Below, piece by piece: positions 15,899 through 30,751 of a stretch of 38,828 bases of DNA. The notes under the pieces were generated by a model. That model was not told the DNA's origin, did not search any database, and was given only the letters and a program-made list of their open reading frames with translations. The first letter of the stretch is position 1, and every line of letters starts with the position of its first letter. The position numbers and the translations under genes were made by a program. Source of the DNA: a virus; the IMG/VR virus record IMGVR_UViG_3300034102_002172, positions 1-38,828 of that record. One strand, written 5' to 3'.

Positions 15899-16201
15899 TT
15901 AGTTCAGCTCGAGAACGGCAGGCGCCTCGGGCGGGTTGTCGTGGTCGATCGCGCCGGCGAACTCCGGCAGCGTCTTCAAAAACGCGTAGGACGCCGGGAA
16001 CACATCCGCAGACACGGTCGCGAGCTCCGTCGCGTGCTCTTCCGTCCAGACGGGATTGGCTCCCGCCATGCGATCGTCGAAGCTGGCGTAGGTCAGAACG
16101 AACACGTAGGCCGAATCCTTGTCGCAACGCGTCACGAGGATGCGCGAGTAGGCCTGCGGATAGTTCACACCGTCCAAGGTAAAGTCACGAACAAGTGCCA
16201 T
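15899..16201 (-). CDS. Unknown protein following the tail adhesin
   Basis: The product is 100 aa with AAAGGA upstream of the ATG. It begins MALVRDFTLDGVNYPQAYSR, and its middle is acidic and aromatic (TYASFDDRMAGANPVW). No signal, membrane span or known motif is seen. Its place between the adhesin gene and the 138-aa structural gene suggests a fibre chaperone or attachment protein, as inference. Confidence 0.65.
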   Translation of the reverse strand: MALVRDFTLDGVNYPQAYSRILVTRCDKDSAYVFVLTYASFDDRMAGANPVWTEEHATELATVSADVFPASYAFLKTLPEFAGAIDHDNPPEAPAVLELN

Positions 16202-16213
16202 TGTCCAATCCTT

Positions 16214-18343
16214 TCAGGCTGCTGCGCCGATGTAGAGGGACGACCCCGCGCCGAAGGTCAGGTTGCCACCGTAGCGCACTTGGCCCTTTTGGGTAGTCCC
16301 GCCGCGCGTCTTGATGGTGCCGCCGTTGCACGTCACGTTGCCCGTGCCAAGGACCTCGCCGTTGCCAGCGCCCGAGCTGGCCAGCGTATTCGTGACGAGC
16401 TCGACAGTGCCGCTTGCGCCGATGGTCACAGCGCCCGACGTCGTCGCGCTGTTCGTCGACTCGCACCGAAGCGTGCCAGCGTTGACGGCCGTGGTCCCGC
16501 TGTAGGTCCGGGTCGTGACAACCCACTTGCCCGCGTCTTCCTTCGCGAGCGACAGCGCGCCGGTGTTGTCCGCGAGAGTCGACGTGATGGTGTTCGCGCC
16601 GGTGTTGCTGCCCTTCAACGTCAGCGTCTTGGCCGACGTGCTGGACGACAGCGTTGACACCGTCAGCGCTCCCGAGCCTGACGCCTCAAAGCTAGGCGCC
16701 GAACCGTTCAGCTGCGTCGCCCTGGACAGGGTCGCGGTAGCGCCGGTGTACTTCAGGTTGCCGGTCAACTGGATGGTCGCGACGCCAGTGCCAAGCGCCC
16801 CGACGGAGCCGATGGCCAGCGTGCCGGCCGTGACTGTGATTGCGCCGTCGTAGGTGTTAGAAAAGGCCGCAAGGGCAAGCTCGCCGTCGCCCGTCTTCGT
16901 GACGCCAAAAGTGCTGGCACCGTCGGTAATCGCGCCACTGTTGGCGATGGCAAGGCGGTTGCCAGTCGTGACCTCAAACGTCGTCGTCCCGCCAAGCGTA
17001 ATGCCCGCCGTCTGAACCGTGTTGTCGCCGACGCTGGTGATTGGCGAGGTCTGGTGGATGGTAAAGGCCGTCGACGACTTGTCGAGCGTGATGCCGCCCG
17101 CGAGCTCAAGGACGCCCGTCCCGCTGATGGTAACGCCACCCGCCGACGTGGCACTGCCCAATGCCTTCGCCGACTGCGCCGACAGCGTGCCCGCGCTAAC
17201 GGTGTGAATGCCTGTGTGGCTGCTGTTGGCGCCGCTGAGGACCCAGCGCCCAGCGTCTGCCTTGGTTATACCAAGGATAGCGCCTCGTGCGACGTCTTCC
17301 TCGGTGATGTTGCCCGACAGCGTGTTGGCGCCGGTGTTAGTTCCGCCGAGCGTCAGGCTCATCCGGGCCGATGTCCCCGGCGTGCCGCGCCCGCTATTGG
17401 TTCGCGTGACCGCGCCGGTAAGGACAATTGGGCCAGAGCCCGACGACAGGAGCGAGTAAGTGCCTGCCGTCATGCTGCTCAGCGCCGCGTAATCCTCTGA
17501 ATCGACAATGATGCTAGTTGTTTTGGTTTCACCAGCTCCGGCGTAGGTGATGATGCCTGACACAGTATCGACATGTCCGACATTAGAAGACCAGATGAGG
17601 CCGCCCGGCAGCTCGGTAAGAAGCATGCGCGTGTTGTTTCCGCCCGAGCCCGCTTGAATTCTAACGCCGATAAAGCCAACAAACGTGCCAATCCCAGACG
17701 GGAAAGTAACTCCGTTAGCGCCTGAAAACGCTCCGTTTATCATCACGCGTGAAGTAGATTGTCCCGTTGGAACTACTGGAAATTCGTAGTCTGCCGTGCC
17801 TCCGAGGTAGATGAAGCGTGTGTCTGCCCCCATGGACAGTGACGAAAACGAATAGAAGCTTACGGTACGAGAAATAACCAAACCGCCAGAGCTGACATTT
17901 GCCGCCCCGGACAGCCCAGAGGACACGCCAATCAAGCCAAGCGATGCCCATTGCGAGGTACCGGTAACGTTAATGCCACTAGTACCGCTGACAGGCGCTG
18001 TAAAAATAAGTTGCTGCGTCAGGTTTACGAACGGATTGGAGCCAGCAAAGACAAGTGCACCGGTGCCAGCAGCCGCCACTGTCTGCGCTGCGCTAAGGTT
18101 GCGCGTGTAGATGCCGTTGAGCGTGACCGTAACGCCCGTAACGATGGTAGCTGTGCCAGCCGTCGTCGACACGACAGAGGCCGAGCCGAAGTAGGCAGCG
18201 TCAGCGTTCGTAAAGGTGAACGTTGCAGGCGTAGCAGTGCCAGCCGCCGACGTTGACCAACTTGCCGTGGTCGTGTCCCAGTTACCCGTCAGCGTGCCGA
18301 AGCCGGCCGTGATGCCATTGCGATCGAAGTAGCGGTCTGCCAT
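16214..18343 (-). CDS. Large tail fibre/adhesin with autotransporter-like beta-helix repeats
   Basis: The product is 709 aa and very rich in Thr, Ser, Gly, Ala and Val. Repeated segments such as ANSSHTGIHTVSAGTLSA, NTYDGAITVTAGTLAIGSVG and YSGTTAVNAGTLRCES match the passenger-associated repeat of bacterial autotransporters ('YxGxTxVxAGTL'), which builds a right-handed beta-helix. There is no signal peptide and no outer-membrane barrel, as expected for a virion protein. It is probably a host-recognition fibre or spike. GAGAGG lies upstream. Ser/Thr-Gly wording of the repeats may point to acquisition of bacterial adhesin modules. Confidence 0.72.
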   Translation of the reverse strand: MADRYFDRNGITAGFGTLTGNWDTTTASWSTSAAGTATPATFTFTNADAAYFGSASVVSTTAGTATIVTGVTVTLNGIYTRNLSAAQTVAAAGTGALVFAGSNPFVNLTQQLIFTAPVSGTSGINVTGTSQWASLGLIGVSSGLSGAANVSSGGLVISRTVSFYSFSSLSMGADTRFIYLGGTADYEFPVVPTGQSTSRVMINGAFSGANGVTFPSGIGTFVGFIGVRIQAGSGGNNTRMLLTELPGGLIWSSNVGHVDTVSGIITYAGAGETKTTSIIVDSEDYAALSSMTAGTYSLLSSGSGPIVLTGAVTRTNSGRGTPGTSARMSLTLGGTNTGANTLSGNITEEDVARGAILGITKADAGRWVLSGANSSHTGIHTVSAGTLSAQSAKALGSATSAGGVTISGTGVLELAGGITLDKSSTAFTIHQTSPITSVGDNTVQTAGITLGGTTTFEVTTGNRLAIANSGAITDGASTFGVTKTGDGELALAAFSNTYDGAITVTAGTLAIGSVGALGTGVATIQLTGNLKYTGATATLSRATQLNGSAPSFEASGSGALTVSTLSSSTSAKTLTLKGSNTGANTITSTLADNTGALSLAKEDAGKWVVTTRTYSGTTAVNAGTLRCESTNSATTSGAVTIGASGTVELVTNTLASSGAGNGEVLGTGNVTCNGGTIKTRGGTTQKGQVRYGGNLTFGAGSSLYIGAAA

Positions 18344-18353
18344 GGCCTACCTC

Positions 18354-21143
18354 TCAGATGATAGTGACTTTGACGAGGTTGCCGTCAAGGAACGGAGCGC
18401 CGCAGAACAGGCCGGCCTCGCTGACGCATGTGACGTTCGCTAGCCCGGTCACGGTGCCGCCGACCTCAAAGAGCTCGTAGACACCATCGGTCGCGTAAAG
18501 CTCGCCGTCAAGATAGAGCGTCGTCGCGCCGCTGAAGGTCAAGTCGCCGTCGACGAACTGCTTGCCGTTGGTCGGATTGCTCTTCAACTTGGCGACGACG
18601 TGCGACTTGTGCGGTTTGTCCTGGACAACCTCAACGAATGAAAGCGCAAGGTCAGACGCGTCGACTGTCAGGTATGCGTCAAGGTCCGCCTGCCCGCCAG
18701 GGAAGCTGCCATACTGAAACAGCACGTAGTTTCCGCCGATTGGGTACACGCTCTCGTCAAGGTAGACAGTCGTCGCGCCGGTGAAGTCAAGCGCCCCGTC
18801 GACGTACTGCGCGCCCTCGTAGCTGTCGCCCATGAGCGACCACGACCACGAGCCGCCAGCGAGCTGCATGTCGGGCCCGGCCCAGCTGGCCGCGACAAGC
18901 GTCGTGATAGTGAATGTGCCAGCGTCAAGGGCCATGTCCGGGCCGGTCCACGATGCCGAGTCGCGCGCGCTGAACGTGCCCGCGTCAAGCTGCATGTTCG
19001 GACCGGTCCAGCCAGCCGCTTCGTCCGCCGTAAACGTGCCGCCGTCGAGCTGCATGTCCGGGCCCTGCCACGCGACGACGCGCTGCGCCGTGAACGTGCC
19101 GCCGTCAAGCTGCATGTCGGGCCCGACGTAGTCCGCAGATTCGGTTGCCGACCACGTACCGCCAGCGAGGGCGAGGTCCGGGCCGATGTAGTCAGCCGAC
19201 TCCGACGCGCCAAAGGTCCCGCCGTCAAGCGCCACGTCCGGGCCCGACCACGTGGCCACGTAGGCCGCGCTGAACGTGCCCGCATCAAGGGCCATGTCCG
19301 GGCCTTCCCAGTAGACGCCGAGGCGCGTGGCAAAGGTGCCGCCGTCAAGCGCGATGTCTGGCCCTTCCCACGTGCCGACCTCGTTGGCCGTGAACGTGCC
19401 GGCGTCAAGCGCAAGCTCGGGGCCGCTCCAGAGCTGCACCTCGCGGGCGTCAAACGTCCCGCCGTCAAGCGCCATGTCCGGCCCGACGTAGTCCGCCAGC
19501 TCGAGCGCGCTGAACGTGCCGCCGTCAAGGGCAACGTCGGGTCCGATGTAATCCGCCGACGCTGACGCCGTGAACGTTCCGCCGTCAAGTGCGAGGTCCG
19601 GGCCCTGCCAGTAAACGCCGACGCGCGCGACGAACGTCCCGCCGTCAAGCGCCATGTCGGGGCCAACGTAGTCCGCGAGTTCGAGCGCCGTGAACGTGCC
19701 CGCGTTGAGGTCCATCGCAGCGCCCGGCCAGTCGACGTCTTCGTTGGCCGTGAAGTAGCCCGGGTCAAGGTCGAGCGCTGGGCCGATGTAGTCGACGCTC
19801 GCAAGCGCCGTGAACGTCCCGCCGTCAAGTGCGAGGTCCGGACCGGACCAGATGCCGACCTCCTGCGCCGCGAACGTGCCTGCATCGAGGGCCATGTCGG
19901 GGCCAGCGTAGTCGGCGAAGCCAGCCGCCGCGAACGTGCCAGCGTCCAGCGCCATGTCGGGGCCCTGCCACGCAGCTTGCTCTTGACCGGACCACGTGCC
20001 GCCGTCGAGCGCGAAGTCTGGCCCGACGTAGTCCGCCGACTCGAGAGCCGTCCAGGTACCGCCGTCAATCGCGATGTCAGGCCCGACCCACCGGAACTCG
20101 CCCGATGCGGTGAACGTGCCAGCGTCAAGGTTGACCTCGGGCCCAGCGTAGTCCACGACCGCCAGCGCCGTGACGCTGCCAGCGTCAAGCGCCACGTCGG
20201 GCCCGACGTAGTCCGCCGACTCAAACGCTGCCCATGCGCCCGCATCAAGGGCCATGTCCGGGCCCTGCCAATAGGCTGTCTCGGCTCCCTGCCATTCGCC
20301 CGGGTCAAGCGACATGTCCGAGCCGGCGTAGTCGGCGACGCCGATGGCCGTGAAGTCGCCCGCGTATGCCAGCAGCTCCGGGCCTTCCCACCGCGCAATC
20401 TCGGTCACGCTGTAGGTGCCGCCGTCAAGGTCGAGCGCCGGGCCAGCGTAGTCTACAGCGCCCGAGGCTGCGAACGTCCCGCCGTCAAAGGCCACGTCGG
20501 GCCCAATCCAGGAGGCACTTTCAAACGCGGTGAACGTCCCGCCGTCAAGGGCCATGTCCGGGCCCTGCCAGAGCGCTGCCTCTGAGGCGAACCACGTGCC
20601 ACCGTCAAGCGCGAGCTCGGGCCCGATGTAGCTGACAGCCGCCAGCGCCGTGAAGGCCCCGCCCTCGAGCGCCAGCGATGGCCCTTCCCACGATGCCTCT
20701 TCGTTCACTGACCACGCGCCAGGCTCGAGCTGCATCTCGGGGCCGGTGTAGCTCACAGCCCCGCTGACGGTGAACGTGCCGCCGTCTAGCGCCACGTCTG
20801 GCCCGAGGTAGTCCGCCTGCGTGATGGCCTCAAAGGTGCCGCCGTCAAGCGCCATCTCCGGGCCGGTGTAGCTGACGGTCGCGAACGCGCTGAACGTGCC
20901 AGCGTCGAGCGTCAGTTCCGCTCCGGTGTAGTCCGCCGACATGGCCGCGCTAAAGCTGCCGCCGTCGAGGTCAAGCGCCGGGCCTTCCCATGACGCTTCC
21001 TCGTTGACAGACCACGTCCCGCCAGCGAGCAGCATGGCAGGGCCAATCCAGTCCACGAAGACGGGAGGCTTTGGACGCCTGCCGCCTTGGCTGTAGTACT
21101 GCTGCCAGTGCTCTTGATAGAGCTTGCGTGGCTGCGTCGGCAT
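18354..21143 (-). CDS. Giant repeat protein of about 37 twenty-residue units, probable tail surface protein
   Basis: The product is 929 aa. After about 31 residues (MPTQPRKLYQEHWQQYYSQ start), residues 32 to about 768 are successive 20-residue units starting with Trp or Tyr and centred on GPDMALDGGTF. All but one keep the 20-residue period (one has 22). Two similar C-terminal modules follow, each with DGxLxFxGATTxYLD. The strict period, alternating small and hydrophobic residues and Asp-Gly turns suggest a beta-solenoid or stacked sheet. Placed between tail-tip genes and the adhesin, it is probably a long tail-fibre shaft or virion surface protein. I do not recognise the repeat family. Confidence 0.7.
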   Translation of the reverse strand: MPTQPRKLYQEHWQQYYSQGGRRPKPPVFVDWIGPAMLLAGGTWSVNEEASWEGPALDLDGGSFSAAMSADYTGAELTLDAGTFSAFATVSYTGPEMALDGGTFEAITQADYLGPDVALDGGTFTVSGAVSYTGPEMQLEPGAWSVNEEASWEGPSLALEGGAFTALAAVSYIGPELALDGGTWFASEAALWQGPDMALDGGTFTAFESASWIGPDVAFDGGTFAASGAVDYAGPALDLDGGTYSVTEIARWEGPELLAYAGDFTAIGVADYAGSDMSLDPGEWQGAETAYWQGPDMALDAGAWAAFESADYVGPDVALDAGSVTALAVVDYAGPEVNLDAGTFTASGEFRWVGPDIAIDGGTWTALESADYVGPDFALDGGTWSGQEQAAWQGPDMALDAGTFAAAGFADYAGPDMALDAGTFAAQEVGIWSGPDLALDGGTFTALASVDYIGPALDLDPGYFTANEDVDWPGAAMDLNAGTFTALELADYVGPDMALDGGTFVARVGVYWQGPDLALDGGTFTASASADYIGPDVALDGGTFSALELADYVGPDMALDGGTFDAREVQLWSGPELALDAGTFTANEVGTWEGPDIALDGGTFATRLGVYWEGPDMALDAGTFSAAYVATWSGPDVALDGGTFGASESADYIGPDLALAGGTWSATESADYVGPDMQLDGGTFTAQRVVAWQGPDMQLDGGTFTADEAAGWTGPNMQLDAGTFSARDSASWTGPDMALDAGTFTITTLVAASWAGPDMQLAGGSWSWSLMGDSYEGAQYVDGALDFTGATTVYLDESVYPIGGNYVLFQYGSFPGGQADLDAYLTVDASDLALSFVEVVQDKPHKSHVVAKLKSNPTNGKQFVDGDLTFSGATTLYLDGELYATDGVYELFEVGGTVTGLANVTCVSEAGLFCGAPFLDGNLVKVTII
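18840..21050. repeat. About 37 degenerate 60-bp coding repeats
   Basis: The 60-bp period encodes the 20-residue units of the 929-aa protein. Units share wording such as the codons for GPDMALDGGTF but differ enough at many positions that this is an old, diversified array rather than a recent expansion. Adjacent copies are not identical, in contrast to the perfect 72-bp repeats in the helicase gene. Confidence 0.9.
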
Positions 21144-21500: not shown

Positions 21501-22028
21501 TCAGACCGCCTGTTCGAGCAAGGGGTAAAAGGCGAAAGAGTAGAGCGCGCCGTATCCGGGGGTGGCCACTGTCAGACGCGCGCCCACAGTTTGCCACGTC
21601 GCCTGCTGCGTCGCTAGGACCTCAAGGAATCCCGTATCGTTGCCAATACTTGGCATCGCTGCGCCGTCCTGCCAGATAGGGTCGCCCATCAGCCGGTCCG
21701 ACGTGCGCTCGAGTATGGTCTGCTGAAGCGCGCCACATCGCAGGGTGTACTTGTAGTTGCCGGTCGCGAGGATGGCGACGCGGAACTTGGTGCAGAACGG
21801 CGGAACCCGGAGCAGCATGTCGAACGTGCTTGAGGTTGAGTAGCCGTAGCCGATGGAAAAGCTAAAGCACTGCGGAGGCGTGCCCCATCCGCACATGAGC
21901 GCGTGCTGTTGCGCCTCGATGGTCCGGACAAGCGCCGCGTCTGCGCGCTGGTAGTCGCGCAGGCTGCGTTGACGCTCAAGCGTGTCAAGGCTGATGTCGT
22001 ACTGTGGGGGCCGTGCCGCCGTCGTCAT
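21501..22028 (-). CDS. Unknown tail-region structural protein
   Basis: The product is 175 aa from ATG 22028, which overlaps the upstream stop (ATGA). An N-terminal charged helix (TLERQRSLRDYQRADAALVRTIEAQQ) is followed by a beta-rich domain with FSIGYGYSTSSTFDMLLRVP and a Gly/Tyr-rich end. This helix-plus-beta plan is common for fibre attachment proteins. No family is recognised. Confidence 0.65.
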   Translation of the reverse strand: MTTAARPPQYDISLDTLERQRSLRDYQRADAALVRTIEAQQHALMCGWGTPPQCFSFSIGYGYSTSSTFDMLLRVPPFCTKFRVAILATGNYKYTLRCGALQQTILERTSDRLMGDPIWQDGAAMPSIGNDTGFLEVLATQQATWQTVGARLTVATPGYGALYSFAFYPLLEQAV

Positions 22029-23014
22029 TCCGCTTGCCTCCAGACTTGCACGCTCTCGAAGTATGCCCACTCGCCGACACCTACAGCGTCGACGCTTGCC
22101 GTAATGTCGACGTCAACCGGGCCTAGCTCTAGCTCGAACGAGCCGTAAGCGTTCGCGCCGACCGGGTAGCTTGACGCTCCGATGGCAATCGAGCCAGTCG
22201 CCGAGACAGAGCTGCGCAGGTAGTAGGTGACGACGTAGCGCCGAGACCTGATATCCGCCCGCGGAATCCGGCCACGCCCGCACATGACGCGTTCCGTGTT
22301 CTCGGACACGCCCCACACAATCAGGTCCTGAGACAACCACGGCATTTTGCTGAAGCTGCTGTCGTCTGAGTTGGCGCGCCACAGGTGCGAGAAGATGCAA
22401 GCCGGCCGGTCCTTGGCAATGCACACCGGGCCATCAAGCAGCCGCGCCGCGAGCTCCGTCGAGATAGCCCGGTCCGTCGTGTCCCAACTGGCCTCCGCCG
22501 TGCGGAAACCGGAAGGATAGAGCACTGCGCCAGGAACTGACGTCGGCTGCCAATAGGCGACGAGCGCGCAGATTTCCACGATGTCGCCAGCCGCAGCCAA
22601 CGCGCTGACGGTCCATTCCTCGTCGGCGTTCGCAGGCGTTGCCGTCAACGTGACCTTCGTGAACGTCAAGGCGCTGATGCTCGCCGTTACCGTTGCCGCC
22701 CCGCCTTTCAGGCTGATTTGACCAGCTAGAACGGCGCCGTTGGTCCGACGCGCAAAGACCTCGACGCGCAACTGAAGGCCGCGCAACGGAGCGCCGGTCG
22801 CGAAGTCGTCGCCGTTGCGCGACCGGAACCGGAACAAGTCCTCGTCCGCGCCTGTGACCGTCGTGAAGAATGGCATGCCCGCCCACTGCGCGACCGGTGG
22901 CTCGTACGTCGCCCACACCTGGTCGTGATTCGCGCGTGCCCGCTGCCATGCTGCGCCCGTCGTCGTCGCGATAGGCGGGACAAGGTTGCTCAAGTATTGC
23001 GGCGTGTACGTCAT
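22025..23014 (-). CDS. Unknown tail-tip or fibre structural protein
   Basis: The product is 329 aa, start overlapping the upstream stop. The first half has beta-sandwich wording (LQLRVEVFARRTNGAVLAGQ, ATVTASISALTFTKVTLT) and the second half has VSATGSIAIGASSYPVGAN and FELELGPVDVDITASVD, again beta. It could be a carbohydrate-binding-like tail component. It follows the large tail-tip gene in the tail-tip/fibre block. Confidence 0.65.
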   Translation of the reverse strand: MTYTPQYLSNLVPPIATTTGAAWQRARANHDQVWATYEPPVAQWAGMPFFTTVTGADEDLFRFRSRNGDDFATGAPLRGLQLRVEVFARRTNGAVLAGQISLKGGAATVTASISALTFTKVTLTATPANADEEWTVSALAAAGDIVEICALVAYWQPTSVPGAVLYPSGFRTAEASWDTTDRAISTELAARLLDGPVCIAKDRPACIFSHLWRANSDDSSFSKMPWLSQDLIVWGVSENTERVMCGRGRIPRADIRSRRYVVTYYLRSSVSATGSIAIGASSYPVGANAYGSFELELGPVDVDITASVDAVGVGEWAYFESVQVWRQAE

Positions 23015-25542
23015 GCCTCAAAGCTCCCGCGCGAGACGTAAAGGTGCTCGTTCTGCGCCGCCGTACCAGCGCCGAAGTCCGCGTAGGTCAACCACGTGTC
23101 GCCGTCGGCAGGATAAGTCGCAGACACGACCGGCGTTGTCAGCTCGATTGTCTGGTAAGTCGCATCAACCGCTGCCACCGTCCGCGTAGCCGACAGCCCA
23201 GCGTTGCCGCGCCGGTAGATTCGGACCTCCATGCCGGCCGCAAAGCCGGTGATATCGTCCACCTCGAGCAGCACCGTCGAAAGGTAGCCGTCGACACGTG
23301 CCGCCGGGCAAAGCTGACGCGCGACCTGCTGCTGTCCAGGGACGAGGAAGGTCAGCGTGCGCTCGCCCGTGCCAAGGCTCATGGTTTCGCCGATGACGCG
23401 CGCCGGAACGGACTGCGCAACTTCGCCGTCAGCCCATGACCAGATGGCCGGGTGGTCAAGGTTCAAGCGACACGGGTCGCCGACTTGAAGCTCGAGCCCG
23501 GGACGCACGCCCATCGTCACGACAAGCTGTCCGTCTGACAGGGCTAGCACCTTGCCTCCAAGGATGAGCGCCGACGCCGTGTTGATGCCCGGCGCGATGA
23601 ACGTAACCGTCCGCGCGCCTTCGGCCTGCTGTCGCGGCACGTCGCGAATTACGCTGACGGTCCGCTTTTGGCGCAGCGTGTCCTCGATGCGCACCACGTT
23701 TGGCGACTCGAACAGGCGTTCGGCCTGCGTTGAACCGACCATGACGGAAGCCGGCGTGACCGTGAGCGCAAGGCCCGGGACGTCAAGCGTCGTCGGCACG
23801 GCTTCGATTCGCACGTAACCGTCCCCCCCCCGCCGCTGCGTCAAGCATCGTCCGAGCAATGCCAGCCACCCGCCCGCGACCTTCTCAACGCTCGCCTTGT
23901 CGTCGCTGGCGCCGTCGACGTACTGCGACGAAAGCGGCCAGCCGTCGAGGTCGAACCACGAGCCCGGAATGCCAAGACCCAGCCCGTAGCCGAGGGTGTC
24001 ATACACACCGCGCCCGCCCGTCCCGCTCGAGGTCGCGAGCGTCTCAATGACCTCTTCAAGCGTCCCGCGCTCTCCAGGCACGGCCGTTGCCAGCGTCGAC
24101 GCCAAGAACGGGTTGATGCGCGTGGTCCCTTGCAACGCCCGCTCGGTCAACTGGAACGCGACAAGCTGTCCGTTCGCCCACGATGGCGCCGCGATGACGT
24201 TGGCGAACCGCGCCAGTTCAAGGCCCTCGTCGTTCTCGAGCATGATGTAGCCCGAGCTCGGCCACGTCGTAGGCTCGCCGTCGGCTTCGAGGTCAGGCTT
24301 GACGACGACCCACGGATTCAACGCCTCATTCGGCTTGACCTCAAACTTGAAGTCGTCGCCGGTCACCTGTCGGTCGCCCGAGAACCCGCCGCCGGAGGAC
24401 AGGACATCAATGCGCTCCGTGTACGTAGTCGGCCGCTCGAACTGCGACAGAAACCACACGTTGGCACGCAGCGTCATGACCTCGCGCGCGTTGGTCGCCG
24501 GGTCCTCCGAGCACAGGCGGAACCGCATGCGCGGCGTTTCGCCCTCTGTCCAAACGCTCGCAGACGCTGCGACCAGCCGCGGCGAGAACACCGCCGAGTT
24601 TCGCACGCCACCCTCGACGCTTAGCGCCACGCTGTCGAGGTTGACGATGGTCGGAGCCGAGGTCGCAAGGCTCAGGGTCGCGTTGTCGTTGGTGTCGAGG
24701 TTCTCGACGTATACCGTGTCCGACGGCGTGACGACGATGGGATAGCGCCCGAAGGCATCCACCGGCGCTGTCGCATCCTCGAGCGGATGAAATACGACCT
24801 TGCCCTTGGCCGTGCCGCCAAGGTCCTGCGCCAACAGGCGTTCGATGGGAAGGCACCGCAAGAGCATCTGCCGCCCGTCAATCTGTGGCTGCGCGTCAAC
24901 GTAGCCCTTCCAAAACTCTCGGCAATAGCTGCCGACAGTGCAGGCCGTCCCTGCCAGCGCGCGCCCGTCCGGCCCGACGAGGTGCTCGTAGAGTGTCACG
25001 AACCGCCCGCGCCAGTACTGCGGCCGGTCCGTGCAGAACCGGTAACCGCTCGCCGTGCTCGACGGGTGCAGGTAGTTGAGGCCCGCGACCGCCCGCGTGA
25101 TGCCCGTGAAGCTGGCGCCCGTCGTCCCGCTGTAGGTGCAGAACTCGCGCCCGACATAGAACGAGCCCGACGCCGGAAAGCCCGTCGTGCTATTCACGGC
25201 GAAGGTCGTCTGTGTTCCGTCTGCGTCCGCTGTCAGTTGCGCGCGGAGGCTCGGCGTCTGAAACAGTTCAGCCCCAACGACGGCGAGCGCGTCTAGGGCA
25301 AAGACTAGGTCAAGCGACCGGCCACGCCCGAGCCCGGTAACACGGTCAAGCTCTCGGCTGATTCGGTCGCTCTCACGCACGCGAAGCGACGCTGGCGCAG
25401 AGGTGTAGCCCGACGGCACCGCGATAGGCTCATCCAGCGTGGTCAACAGCTGCGTTTCAAGGAAGGCATACGGGATGCCCTCAATGGCCACCCCGAACAT
25501 GCGCGAGTATCCCGCGTCGATGAGCTCCGACCATGTCGACAT
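23011..25542 (-). CDS. Tail tip / central baseplate hub-like protein
   Basis: The product is 843 aa, the largest tail-tip protein. It has an early fold with MFGVAIEGIPYAFLETQLLT, and a module with GTQTTFAVNSTTGFPASGSFYVGREFCTYSGTTG-like wording seen in phage tail-tip proteins. Size, order (tape measure, two tail proteins, then this) and content fit a hub or tip attachment protein, as found in siphoviruses with Stf-like tips. The coding strand holds a run of nine G at 23823-23831. The annotation of exact domains is uncertain. Confidence 0.6.
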   Translation of the reverse strand: MSTWSELIDAGYSRMFGVAIEGIPYAFLETQLLTTLDEPIAVPSGYTSAPASLRVRESDRISRELDRVTGLGRGRSLDLVFALDALAVVGAELFQTPSLRAQLTADADGTQTTFAVNSTTGFPASGSFYVGREFCTYSGTTGASFTGITRAVAGLNYLHPSSTASGYRFCTDRPQYWRGRFVTLYEHLVGPDGRALAGTACTVGSYCREFWKGYVDAQPQIDGRQMLLRCLPIERLLAQDLGGTAKGKVVFHPLEDATAPVDAFGRYPIVVTPSDTVYVENLDTNDNATLSLATSAPTIVNLDSVALSVEGGVRNSAVFSPRLVAASASVWTEGETPRMRFRLCSEDPATNAREVMTLRANVWFLSQFERPTTYTERIDVLSSGGGFSGDRQVTGDDFKFEVKPNEALNPWVVVKPDLEADGEPTTWPSSGYIMLENDEGLELARFANVIAAPSWANGQLVAFQLTERALQGTTRINPFLASTLATAVPGERGTLEEVIETLATSSGTGGRGVYDTLGYGLGLGIPGSWFDLDGWPLSSQYVDGASDDKASVEKVAGGWLALLGRCLTQRRGGDGYVRIEAVPTTLDVPGLALTVTPASVMVGSTQAERLFESPNVVRIEDTLRQKRTVSVIRDVPRQQAEGARTVTFIAPGINTASALILGGKVLALSDGQLVVTMGVRPGLELQVGDPCRLNLDHPAIWSWADGEVAQSVPARVIGETMSLGTGERTLTFLVPGQQQVARQLCPAARVDGYLSTVLLEVDDITGFAAGMEVRIYRRGNAGLSATRTVAAVDATYQTIELTTPVVSATYPADGDTWLTYADFGAGTAAQNEHLYVSRGSFEA

Positions 25543-25544
25543 CG

Positions 25545-26237
25545 TCAGTCCTCCACCGCGAGCGTAACCCGAACCTCAGCCCAGAGCTGCGCGTCCCCCA
25601 GCCACCGAGGCGATGCCGTCGACATCACGCGCCCCGTGATCGCGCCGCCCGGTTGCGAGGCCCCGAACGGCGAAGCATTGCCGCCCTCAATCGTGATGCG
25701 CCCGCGTTGACACCAGCCAAACAGCCACGCGTCCAGCGCCCACTTGTGCATGGTCAACAGCACCGTGACGACCCGTGCGCCGCCCCAGGCGAAACCCATA
25801 TCGCGTTCCAGCCGGTCCGGGACTTGCTCATCGTCCGCGTCGATGCGCTGCGCCTCGACGTGATAGCCCGCGAGCGGGATGGCCACCGGCGACAGGCGCG
25901 ACGAGGTGAACGACGACGCCGCCGGCACGCCCCCGTCTGCGCGCGCTACAAGGCCCAACAAGACGCCTAGCCGGTCCGGTCCTATCAACGCCATGGATGA
26001 CGCCGGCGTGACCGTAAAACGGCCTTCTGCGTGCGTCGTAGCGAGGCCCGCCGAAGTCATTGCCGCCGCAACCGCGTCGCCCCGGTAGATGCCCGACGCG
26101 AGCTGATACGTCGTCGCGCCCGCGCGCAACCGACGGTAGCCGGTCTCGCTTGCGTCGACGTAGCCGTAAAGCATGGCACCAGCAGGCGGCAGCTGCGCCG
26201 GCAGGGTGTGTTGCAGCGCCTGACTCAGTGACCTCAT
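25545..26237 (-). CDS. Tail-tip assembly protein, unknown family
   Basis: The product is 230 aa, start overlapping the upstream stop (ATGA). Mixed sequence with YGYVDASETGYRRLRAG, AIPLAGYHVEAQRIDAD and a C-terminal RWLGDAQLWAEVRVTL. No membrane or zinc motif. It is the second of two mid-size genes between tape measure and tail tip, the slot of distal tail or tip-assembly proteins. The role is inferred from order only. Confidence 0.6.
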   Translation of the reverse strand: MRSLSQALQHTLPAQLPPAGAMLYGYVDASETGYRRLRAGATTYQLASGIYRGDAVAAAMTSAGLATTHAEGRFTVTPASSMALIGPDRLGVLLGLVARADGGVPAASSFTSSRLSPVAIPLAGYHVEAQRIDADDEQVPDRLERDMGFAWGGARVVTVLLTMHKWALDAWLFGWCQRGRITIEGGNASPFGASQPGGAITGRVMSTASPRWLGDAQLWAEVRVTLAVED

Positions 26238-26842
26238 GGGACGGCGACTCCGTTGATGCGCGCCTCGACGATGCCCGGCAACCGCCCCTGAGGCTCAAGG
26301 CTTGAGCCCGTGACGCGTATCCGGCCAAGCCAGATGCCCTCGTTGACGACGTCCCAAACGCCAATGCGCAAAGTCTTCAAGACTTGGAACGCGTCCGCGT
26401 AGATGACAGACATGGCCAGCGACACCGACCCCGCCGTCCACCTCGGTGTCGACACCGCCGACCCATCCGCCGACGGTTTGCCCGCCGTCGTCGACCATCC
26501 GGGCGGAGCCATGCGCAACCCGTCCACAGTGACCACCGACGACAGCGCCGAACCCGTGTAGCTAGACGCGCCAGAGCACGTAGCCGGGAGTCCCGTCAGC
26601 GTGTCCGCGCCAAGCGTCAACAGCATGTTGAAGATGCTAGGCCCGCTCATGGTCAACTGCTTCGTGGCCTCGTTGAAGGCCAGACCGAACGACGCGTTGG
26701 CCTGAGACAGAGCCTGCGTAACCCGCGCCGTCAGAGACCACGCGCTTTCACGCTCATCCGCCCGCGTCACGCCCCCGAAGCCCGAGAGCGCGAAGGTCTC
26801 AAACGTGGCCCGCGTCTCGATGACCGGGAACAGAGCCGCCAT
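26234..26842 (-). CDS. Probable distal tail protein
   Basis: The product is 202 aa from ATG 26842, with GGGAGG six bases upstream (GTG 26845 is also possible). Beta-rich with FETFALSGFGGVTRADER, WSLTARVTQAL and VIYADAFQVLKTLRIGVWDV. First gene after the tape measure, the usual position of the distal tail protein that caps the tube and organises the tip. No direct family motif is recognised. Confidence 0.55.
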   Translation of the reverse strand: MAALFPVIETRATFETFALSGFGGVTRADERESAWSLTARVTQALSQANASFGLAFNEATKQLTMSGPSIFNMLLTLGADTLTGLPATCSGASSYTGSALSSVVTVDGLRMAPPGWSTTAGKPSADGSAVSTPRWTAGSVSLAMSVIYADAFQVLKTLRIGVWDVVNEGIWLGRIRVTGSSLEPQGRLPGIVEARINGVAVP

Positions 26843-28875
26843 CACCAGCCTCCCGCGCTCGCCATGCCCGTGTTCCGCGCCGTCATCTCCGCGCGACGGA
26901 ATGCCATGGCCGTGCTCTGCCCGTCGACGATGCCCGTTTGCAGGTTGTACACGTTCGTGATGGTGCCGCCTCCGCCGCCCATCGTGCTGTCACGCGTCGA
27001 GGCCGCAGCCTTCGCGGGCGCCTTGCTTCCTCCGCCGTCGCCGCCGCGTGGCGTTGCCTTAATAGCACCGCCAGCGACGAGGCCGAACATGAGCGCCGCA
27101 GTGAAGTGGCCAGCGCTTTCAGCCGGGTTGCCCAACGTCGCAAAGCCCATGGCCGTTTCAAACAGCGCGCGGATGCCGGCCTCCACTTTGACGCTGTCAA
27201 TCTTCTTGCCGACCGCGCCCGCGATGGCCCCGGCACTGCCGACGATGGCCGTGGTCAAGCCCTGCTGCCCGTCCTTGAACTTGCCCATCTGCGCGTTGAT
27301 GCCGGCCAAGCTTTCGCTCACGACCTCGAAGGCCGGCGCCTGCACCTGCCCAAGCGTCTGCAGCGCGTCGCTGAAGTTTGTGACGTAGCCGGCGAGGTTC
27401 TCCCGGTCGAGCTGCTCGCGCATTTTTGCCGCATCCTCAGCCGCCTTCAGCCGCGTCTCGCCGAGCGCAGACAACGCAGCGTTGACACCCTCGACGGCCT
27501 TCTGCTCGGCTTCCCAAGTCGACAGCACCTTATCCGCTGCCTCTTGATCGAAGTACTCAGCGATGCCCATCTGCGCGTGCTGCTTAGCCAGCGCGTCAAG
27601 CTCGACCAGTCGCTTCTCGAGCTCTGTCTTGAGAGGCGCAAAGGCCGCAGCCATGGCGCCCTGCGGAAGGCTGGCAAGCTCTGCCGCCACCTTGTCGCGA
27701 GTCTCGCGCAACGTTGCCAGATTCTCCTCGCCAACGCCCGCCAGCGCAATCCGCCGCTGGTGCTTGCGCTCCTCGTCCAGCTCTTCAATCCGGAAGTCGT
27801 TAGCCCTATCGCGTCGCTCCTGTCGGAGCGCTTCCTCTTCGGCCAACTGGCGCGCGATGTCTTCCGGACTCGGGCCTTGAGCCGCGCGACCGCCACCGGC
27901 GCCGCGAGCCTCAGGCATGTCGGGCTTGCCGAGGTTGATTAGCCGCTGATTGGTAATTTCCTTGGTCAGTTTGATTTCTTCTTGAAGCCCGACGTTTGCC
28001 TCGTCGATGGCGTCCCGATTCTTGAGTGCCAAGTCCAGCTTGGCGCGCTGCGTGACGACACTGGCGCCGACGACAAGTGCCTCGGCTCGAAGCGCTGCCG
28101 CCCGCTCCCGCGCTTCAACCTTGTTGAATTCCCTCAGAGCCTTGTTGTCCTCACGCCTTGCGTCGCGCAACAACTGCTGTTGTTTGGACTCGAGCGCGCC
28201 AAGCTCGCTTTGCGCCTTGATGGCCTCGGACACCGCGTTCTTGCGCTCGCCTTCTCGCTTGGCTTCTTCGTTGCGAAGCTCTCCAATCTTGCCCTTCAGC
28301 TGCTCAACTGCGACGCCTTCGCGCTCGAACCTTGCCGTCTCGGTATCGCCCCGAAGCTCGGCCAGCTCTGCTCGCGAAGCCGCCAGCGTTGCCGCCGACG
28401 CACCCGTTGCCGCCTGCATGCGCGCCAAAGACGACGACAGCGCGTCTGTCGATACCTTCAGCCGGTCCGTTTCGGCCTTGTTCTTCTTCATCTGCGCCTC
28501 GAGCGCAGCGGCCTTTTCGTCGCTGTCGTCGAAGGCGTCGGAAAGGAAGTTAAACGCGGTGATGACCGCAGTCACACCCGAGCCAAGGAAGCCGAAAATC
28601 TCAATGCCCTTGTTGAGCGACTCCTTGAGCTTGCCGATGCCCTCAAGCGGGCCCGAGATAGCGCCGGCCATGCGTCCGAGCGTGCCGTTGATGCTTGTGG
28701 TCGCGGCCTCTTGAGCCTTTGCCGCCTGCGTCTGAGCCTGCGTCGCACCCGTCAGCGAGCGCGTTTTGGCCTCAAGCTCGGCCATCCGCTTCTTCGCGTC
28801 CTCGAGCATGCGGATGGTCTCGTCTTCGCCGACCAGCGAGACGTTCAGCTCAGTGCGTGCCGCCGTCAGTGCCAT
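26842..28875 (-). CDS. Tail tape measure protein
   Basis: The product is 677 aa and strongly helical, with long Ala/Glu/Lys/Arg-rich stretches (RMAELEAKTRSLTGATQAQT, LRNEEAKREGERKNAVSEAI). A hydrophobic patch near residues 75-110 holds GIEIFGFLGSGVTAVITAFNF, and a Gly/Ala-rich C-terminal region follows (VGSAGAIAGAVGKKI, then a GGGGG loop). This is the standard plan of a siphovirus tape measure, which sets tail length and passes into the host membrane. The start lies 26 bp inside the GT frame; the stop overlaps the distal tail gene. Confidence 0.88.
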   Translation of the reverse strand: MALTAARTELNVSLVGEDETIRMLEDAKKRMAELEAKTRSLTGATQAQTQAAKAQEAATTSINGTLGRMAGAISGPLEGIGKLKESLNKGIEIFGFLGSGVTAVITAFNFLSDAFDDSDEKAAALEAQMKKNKAETDRLKVSTDALSSSLARMQAATGASAATLAASRAELAELRGDTETARFEREGVAVEQLKGKIGELRNEEAKREGERKNAVSEAIKAQSELGALESKQQQLLRDARREDNKALREFNKVEARERAAALRAEALVVGASVVTQRAKLDLALKNRDAIDEANVGLQEEIKLTKEITNQRLINLGKPDMPEARGAGGGRAAQGPSPEDIARQLAEEEALRQERRDRANDFRIEELDEERKHQRRIALAGVGEENLATLRETRDKVAAELASLPQGAMAAAFAPLKTELEKRLVELDALAKQHAQMGIAEYFDQEAADKVLSTWEAEQKAVEGVNAALSALGETRLKAAEDAAKMREQLDRENLAGYVTNFSDALQTLGQVQAPAFEVVSESLAGINAQMGKFKDGQQGLTTAIVGSAGAIAGAVGKKIDSVKVEAGIRALFETAMGFATLGNPAESAGHFTAALMFGLVAGGAIKATPRGGDGGGSKAPAKAAASTRDSTMGGGGGTITNVYNLQTGIVDGQSTAMAFRRAEMTARNTGMASAGGW

Positions 28876-29533: not shown

Positions 29534-30751
29534 TCATCCGAAGGCGATACGGAAGGCCGTTCCCTTGACCGTAGACGCGCCCGCCGTGCCATCGCTAGCC
29601 GCGACCACGTTGCGCACCTCGTACACGCGCTCAAGGCCCCACACGCCGCCAAGGTCGACCGGCTTCGACGTGCTCTGGAGCTGGATAGCCGGGCCGTAGC
29701 AGGCCACGTGATAGCCAGTACCCGCGCCCGTCGAGCTCAAACCCCACATGCGGGCCAAAGCCTGTCCGGGCTCGATTGTCCCGTTCGTGATAAGGTCCGC
29801 GTAAATGTCAGAAGTCAACATCCGCTCCGTGATGACCACCTGCCGGTCAGTCGTCACGAGCTGCGACACGCCCTGCTCCGAGCTGGAGCACAGCGCCTCT
29901 GACAGAGTCTGCGTAATGTTCACCGCGAGCTCGGCGAAACAAAACGCGTCGTCCGTCCCGGGGTCAACGCTGTAGGTGTTGAGCACTGGGCCAAGCTGCG
30001 TACGCGGGAAAGAGAAGGCCGGAGCCGACAGCGCGTCGACATATTCCCAGTCGAGGAACTGGAGCGTCACCGCGACGAGGATCTGAGCCTTGGCGTTGGC
30101 GGTGATGTTGCAGGCCGTCACGCGGCCATCCCATGCGCGAAATCCGCCGTTGGCGCCAGCCGTCGCGAACTCCATCGTGAACGGAAGATTTGCCAAGCCG
30201 CCAGTCGTGAAGCCGACCGTGACCGTGCGCTTGACCGTCTGCGCGCTGTCAGGCGTCGCGTTCAGCTCGACGATGCTGACCTCGTCCGGCGTCGGAGTCG
30301 TGTTAACGTCGGTGACAAAGCTCAGACGACTGCCACCAGTGGTCGTCGGCACAATGGCGCCTTGGCCAATCCACGCAGTGTTGGCCGCCGACACCGTCAG
30401 CGTGTTGCTCGTCGACGCGCTCGTGATGGCACCGATAGCGGCCTGCACCTGCATCGTGCCGAGGGCATCGGCAATCAGCTTGTGCTCGATGGTCGCCGCC
30501 GAAGCGTCGCCGCAGTCGGTCAGGACGAACGTGAGCTGAGCGGTCGCGCCGGCCTTGCTTCCGGCCTTCTTGTCGCTGGCGCCGAACACCGGGCGCTGCG
30601 TCGGCTGGCCGAGCGCCTCATACACGCCCGAAGGCATGAACATGCCCTGCGCGTCGATGGCGTCAGTGTCGGCGAACGAGGTGACCTCGGTCCCCCATGC
30701 GCCCTGCTGCTTGACCCAAATCCGCCCGAGCTTCGTAGGTCCGTACGACAT
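29534..30751 (-). CDS. Major tail protein (tail tube)
   Basis: The product is 405 aa with GAGGAG before the ATG. It is beta-rich with many Thr, Ser, Ala and Gly (AAIGAITSASTSNTLTVSAA, VEIVELNATPDSAQTVKRTV-like strands) and starts MSYGPTKLGRIWVKQQGAWG, the 'gly-arg-trp' opening common to large siphovirus tube proteins. It is longer than typical 200-250 aa tube proteins, so an extra surface domain is likely in the middle or C-terminal half. Placed right before the chaperones, as expected. Confidence 0.78.
   Translation of the reverse strand: MSYGPTKLGRIWVKQQGAWGTEVTSFADTDAIDAQGMFMPSGVYEALGQPTQRPVFGASDKKAGSKAGATAQLTFVLTDCGDASAATIEHKLIADALGTMQVQAAIGAITSASTSNTLTVSAANTAWIGQGAIVPTTTGGSRLSFVTDVNTTPTPDEVSIVELNATPDSAQTVKRTVTVGFTTGGLANLPFTMEFATAGANGGFRAWDGRVTACNITANAKAQILVAVTLQFLDWEYVDALSAPAFSFPRTQLGPVLNTYSVDPGTDDAFCFAELAVNITQTLSEALCSSSEQGVSQLVTTDRQVVITERMLTSDIYADLITNGTIEPGQALARMWGLSSTGAGTGYHVACYGPAIQLQSTSKPVDLGGVWGLERVYEVRNVVAASDGTAGASTVKGTAFRIAFG

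Follow-up and report, generated by a model that had tools for sequence, protein, structure and literature searches.

Beta-helical fibres are an established element of tailed-phage adsorption apparatus. The phage 7-7-1 gp015 long tail fibre (9RKV) and the CBA120 tailspike TSP3 (6NW9) each consist of an anchor, a beta-helical middle and a C-terminal head, with the 7-7-1 fibre being a trimer, while in T4-type fibritin the C-terminal module is swapped and the rod is kept (PMC3797505). A comparable layout is proposed here for a 929-residue repeat protein encoded on the minus strand (18354..21143) of the 38.8-kb IMG/VR virus record IMGVR_UViG_3300034102_002172, the whole of which, 38,828 nucleotides, constitutes the window. 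Both 9RKV and 6NW9 superpose on the model predicted for its shaft (Z 10.9 and 11.8, respectively) with no detected sequence similarity, and the shaft differs from them in its strict 20-residue coil, repeated 37 times. The protein is best read, with moderate confidence, as a tail-fibre (receptor-binding) protein composed of an anchor, a beta-helix shaft with a maintained number of units, and an exchangeable tip. An earlier note on this DNA had suggested a new kind of fibre shaft; the repeat family is indeed new to the databases consulted, whereas beta-helical phage fibres with exchangeable tips are of a kind already known.

The shaft extends over residues 32-773 (18825..21050, minus strand). 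Residues 32-731 form 35 units of exactly 20 residues each, followed by a single 22-residue unit (unit 36, residues 732-753; 18885..18950, minus strand) and a degenerate 37th and last unit at residues 754-773. The consensus is [WY]-x-G-P-[DE]-[MLV]-A-L-D-[GA]-G-T-[FW]-x-A-x-E-x-[AV]-x. When 36 units are tabulated, every unit starts with W or Y (19 and 17 times), G3 and G11 are invariant, and the other strongly conserved positions are P4 and L8 (33/36 each), F/W13 (34/36) and D9 (30/36). Identity at a lag of 20 residues reaches 0.49, against a maximum of 0.14 over all lags in 2000 shuffles. The unit count of about 37 and the strict W/Y-initiated period with one 22-residue exception, both described in the earlier note, are therefore borne out, as are the two related C-terminal modules (VDGALDFTGATTVYLD and VDGDLTFSGATTLYLD). 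The shaft contains 114 acidic and 7 basic residues and neither Cys nor His, an acidic skew unmatched among the other proteins of this phage that were sampled. The units share little DNA identity (mean 59%, maximum 77%), indicating that the units are old and represent neither an assembly artefact nor a recent expansion.

This repeat family is undescribed in the libraries searched: no description was found in Pfam, PHROG, NCBIfam, the PDB or phage records, nor among the papers listed by a literature search for 20-residue phage fibre repeats, in keeping with its having gone unrecognised in the earlier note. Weak PHROG total scores were rejected, as no single stretch supports them. The window fibre, the fibre of the relative G003, a 120-residue repeat piece, the neighbouring gene and an 843-residue tail gene were each compared with phage records and had no credible match there, and comparison of the shaft and terminase with bacterial and archaeal genomes, in search of a host or prophage, gave none. 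Three relatives were obtained from IMG/VR. A sister phage, L001, was found with the fibre protein itself; it carries 37 units and is 95% identical over the shared residues 1-767, and the shaft comparison gives a synonymous divergence (dS) of 0.226, a nonsynonymous divergence (dN) of 0.021 and a ratio (omega) of 0.09, that is, purifying selection. G003 and G002 were found by terminase search. The G003 fibre has 948 residues and 38 units that follow the pattern W-x-G-P-D-A-x-[GA]-D-G-G-[TS]-F-x-A-x-E-x-A-x, and is about 45% identical to the window protein; aligning the unit profiles of the two proteins with hhalign gave a probability of 99.4%. G002 is 95% identical to G003, and its fibre ends at the contig end. 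In both L001 and G003 the 22-residue unit likewise stands just before the last one. No further relatives were found in IMG/VR, where records very close to the window were possibly not covered.

The shaft is probably a right-handed parallel beta-helix, a view that rests on structure prediction. The AlphaFold2 (AF2) model of nine units, built from an alignment with non-overlapping nine-unit segments taken from both the window and L001, is a right-handed parallel beta-helix with one coil per unit (predicted local distance difference test, pLDDT, 83.9; predicted template modelling score 0.80). Each 20-residue coil is predicted to contain three strands, at about positions 12-15, 18-22 and 5-10. Handedness was taken from superpositions: right-handed helices superpose at 2.5-3 Å, whereas left-handed beta-helix (LbH) chains do so only at a root-mean-square deviation (rmsd) of about 12 Å. 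The best low-rmsd superpositions involve tapirins, the Awp1 adhesin, a serine-rich repeat adhesin, tailspikes and the phage 7-7-1 fibre. The closest predicted backbones are those of tapirin C-terminal domains (6N2B, 4WA0) and Awp1 (7O9Q), at Z 14.4-14.7 and rmsd 2.5-2.7 Å over 168-176 residues (tapirin, Z 14.7, 2.7 Å over 175 residues; Awp1, Z 14.4). These are cell-surface adhesins with 11-12% identity over the aligned residues and no strict repeat family in common with the shaft. In the window protein none of the 216 predicted inward positions is charged and one is polar, a hydrophobic interior that is weaker in G003.

Several observations weigh against the beta-helix. Foldseek gave no significant match (best E 0.35 in the PDB and 0.046 in BFVD), and three units folded together with the tip remained below a pLDDT of 50. 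The main internal difficulty is that in G003 the inward M6 becomes A6 and L8 becomes G/A8, leaving a smaller proposed core. A published study (PMC11795689) also shows that AF2 can assign repeats to solenoids confidently but wrongly, and that charges buried in the model point to such errors; this bias is a concern for the shaft model. The absence of inward charges and the imperfection of the units (49% identical) lower this concern without removing it. The solenoid rod in a phage fibre that the earlier note had pictured accordingly draws support from AF2 and from the position of the gene, with the bias still standing. Covariation within units yielded mostly signals between sequence neighbours.

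A fibre shaft of another architecture, namely an intertwined trimer (a triple beta-spiral, a triple beta-helix or something new), is a distinctly less likely alternative. Here, a long strand from T12 to G3 and the GPD...DGG turns would pack across three chains. Short-repeat viral fibres are often intertwined trimers (PMC3150272), the AF2 monomer solenoid may reflect the bias just described, and residues 5-9 of the G003 unit, which lack a large hydrophobic residue, would sit more naturally in an exposed loop than in a core strand. The triple beta-spiral of adenovirus fibre and reovirus sigma1 has in common with the window unit short beta repeats with Gly/Pro turns, but its 15-residue consensus (PMC3150272) cannot be matched to the 20-residue unit in any register: three alternating hydrophobic residues are missing before the turn, and no hydrophobic residue directly follows G3, P4, G10 or G11. 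Triple beta-spiral membership was rejected, as the hydrophobic positions c, e, g, k and m and the Gly/Pro at j are not found in the unit. A unit profile search of the PDB likewise retrieved no triple-spiral chain.

Under the favoured beta-helical arrangement, the N-terminal 31 residues (21051..21143, minus strand), identical in L001 and recognisable by eye in G003, would form a short anchor attaching the protein to the tail tip or baseplate. The rise per coil of a beta-helix is about 0.48 nm, and with one coil per unit the 37 units would build a rigid shaft of about 18 nm, shorter than the 'tens of nanometres' first proposed. Residues 1, 6, 8, 13, 15 and 19 would point inward, and the acidic residues 5, 9, 17 and 20 outward, where they might be neutralised by metal ions. 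In 27 of the 37 window units and 17 of the 38 G003 units, positions 5 and 9 are both acidic. By analogy, such stacked outer ladders may bind metal, as in the Ca2+-dependent antifreeze beta-helix 3P4G, which superposes on the model with Z 12.2. The C-terminal modules, module 1 at about residues 774-855 (18579..18824, minus strand) and the related module 2 at about residues 856-929 (18357..18578, minus strand), would serve as the receptor-contacting tip; the tip model reached a pLDDT of 67, and its fold comparison gave no usable match.

The tip and its downstream genes form a cassette that is exchanged between phages. Between 18844 and 35454, the DNA of the window agrees with that of L001 at about 93-94% identity; divergence begins at residue 767, inside the last unit, and similarity returns at 15904. 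The intervening cassette (15905..18843, minus strand) is replaced in L001 by about 700 residues matching a DUF5122 beta-propeller. This propeller, fused C-terminally to the 20-residue-repeat shaft (L001 12302-14392), weakly resembles (25%) hypothetical proteins from Leptospira phages. In the window, the cassette comprises the two modules, a 709-residue protein with autotransporter-type beta-strand repeats (PF12951, TIGR02601; 16214..18343, minus strand) and a 100-residue gene (15899..16201, minus strand) that travels with it. Over most of its length the cassette shares 85-90% DNA identity with L002, a phage of 62 kb that matches residues 749-928 of the window protein at 91% and the 100-residue gene at 95%, the latter having no match in the L001 sequence fetched. 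In the stretch examined, L002 is otherwise dissimilar, except for the next small gene (55% protein identity). The C-terminal modules noted earlier as the end of the shaft are thus present, but belong to an exchangeable cassette and are not fixed to the shaft. As in fibritin, a C-terminal module is swapped and the rod kept; here, however, the crossover maps to the final unit of the shaft, and so little time has passed since the exchange that 85-90% DNA identity persists.

In L002 and L003, the window tip and one preceding window-type unit (SWNGPDLTLAGGSW) stand on an apparently unrelated shaft, about 1450 residues long, which has 20- and 22-residue units and two inserted tip-like modules. Crossing over probably took place in sequence shared within the last unit; recombination there would swap the tip and following genes as a cassette and leave the number of shaft units unchanged. 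The alternative shaft (L002 6956-11998, L003 6956-12058) has units of the form A-x-G-T-S-x-D-A-x-V-x-V-S-D-x-F-T-P-x-x-x-D and no Pfam match. Homology to the window shaft gained no support from hhalign, with a probability of 0.04% against 99.4% for the G003 units as the positive control; the profile was short and of low complexity, and remote kinship is still conceivable. The autotransporter-type repeat gene (16214-18343) is kept near the fibre in L002, L003 and G003. The small conserved gene at 15899-16201 (MALVRDFTLDGVNYPQAYSRI...) lies in G003 between the fibre and the repeat gene, not after the latter.

A tail-fibre role is supported by the position of the gene in a tailed-phage tail module, a position that is conserved. 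Upstream lies a tail/baseplate module (21501..28875, minus strand) of genes encoding 189, 329, 843, 230, 203 and 677 residues, collinear in L001 at 96-100% identity and in G003 at 46-61%. Surrounding genes match terminase, portal, major head protein, neck protein, endolysin, RecE/RecT and a VapE-type primase, as well as tape-measure-like and baseplate-wedge-like proteins. This context suggests that the repeat protein is carried in the virion. That it is instead a secreted or cell-surface protein carried by the phage (a moron or adhesin) appears improbable: the nearest folds do include bacterial and yeast adhesins and the neighbouring gene has autotransporter-type repeats, but residues 1-31 contain no visible hydrophobic signal sequence, no translocator domain follows, and the gene keeps the same site between tail and lysis genes in a lineage whose tail proteins are about 50% identical. 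The autotransporter-type repeat is about 30 residues long, and the shaft protein falls below the cut-off for TIGR02601 (E 0.79), so that membership in this repeat family applies to the neighbouring gene and not to the shaft.

The number and order of units are conserved as well. The window, L001 and G003 have 37, 37 and 38 units, respectively. When units of the same index were compared between the window and G003 (ungapped, with column expectation subtracted), the mean score was 4.04; permuting unit order gave a standard deviation of 1.07 (z about 3.8), and none of 20000 permutations reached the observed value. The signal is also present in the first nine units alone (p 0.003) and in the last five when anchored C-terminally (p 0.003), whereas gapped one-to-one unit alignment stayed inside the permuted-control range, so that significance is confined to the ungapped order test. 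This indicates that both shafts inherited their units in sequence from an ancestral array of similar length. In this small sample, the easy length change by recombination of tandem units that had been anticipated consequently lacks support. A recombining, length-variable tract whose main role is rapid change in fibre length is more improbable still than a surface protein: similar units do stand in a tandem array, but the constant counts, kept order and purifying selection argue otherwise, and the low DNA identity between units leaves little homology for slippage.

A bolder combination, in which the unit builds an unseen fibre fold other than a plain parallel beta-helix, acidic and ion-stabilised, the count of 37-38 acts as a length ruler and last-unit exchange moves tips between unrelated phages, is doubtful, slightly more so than the intertwined trimer. 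Membership in the beta/gamma-crystallin superfamily is the least credible reading and PF00030 was rejected: the whole protein scores 30.4 in total, above the cut-off (E 4e-7), and the Y-x-G-x4-L-x2-G-x-F spacing resembles part of the Greek-key motif, but single stretches fail (one 60-residue segment at E 0.14, another with no match), the homologue G003 has no match, the unit is 20 rather than about 40 residues, and the predicted fold is different.

Phage fibre shafts gain from these data an undescribed repeat family of unusual regularity. The data also provide a natural experiment, with one shaft bearing two tips, one tip on two shafts and the crossovers mapped to one unit, through which it becomes possible to test both the modular exchange of tips and whether fibre length is constant. 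If its fold is confirmed, the unit, nearly devoid of Lys and Arg and with no Cys or His, could be a template for designed rods.

Two further genes of the structural region deserve mention. The 843-residue tail gene (window 23011-25542) has weak matches to baseplate-wedge families, and among the searched records its relatives occur only in L001, G002 and G003, with none in the phage collection. The 405-residue protein at 29534-30751 is 82% identical to its L001 counterpart, while its neighbours are 99-100% identical, making it a second fast-changing gene of the structural module.
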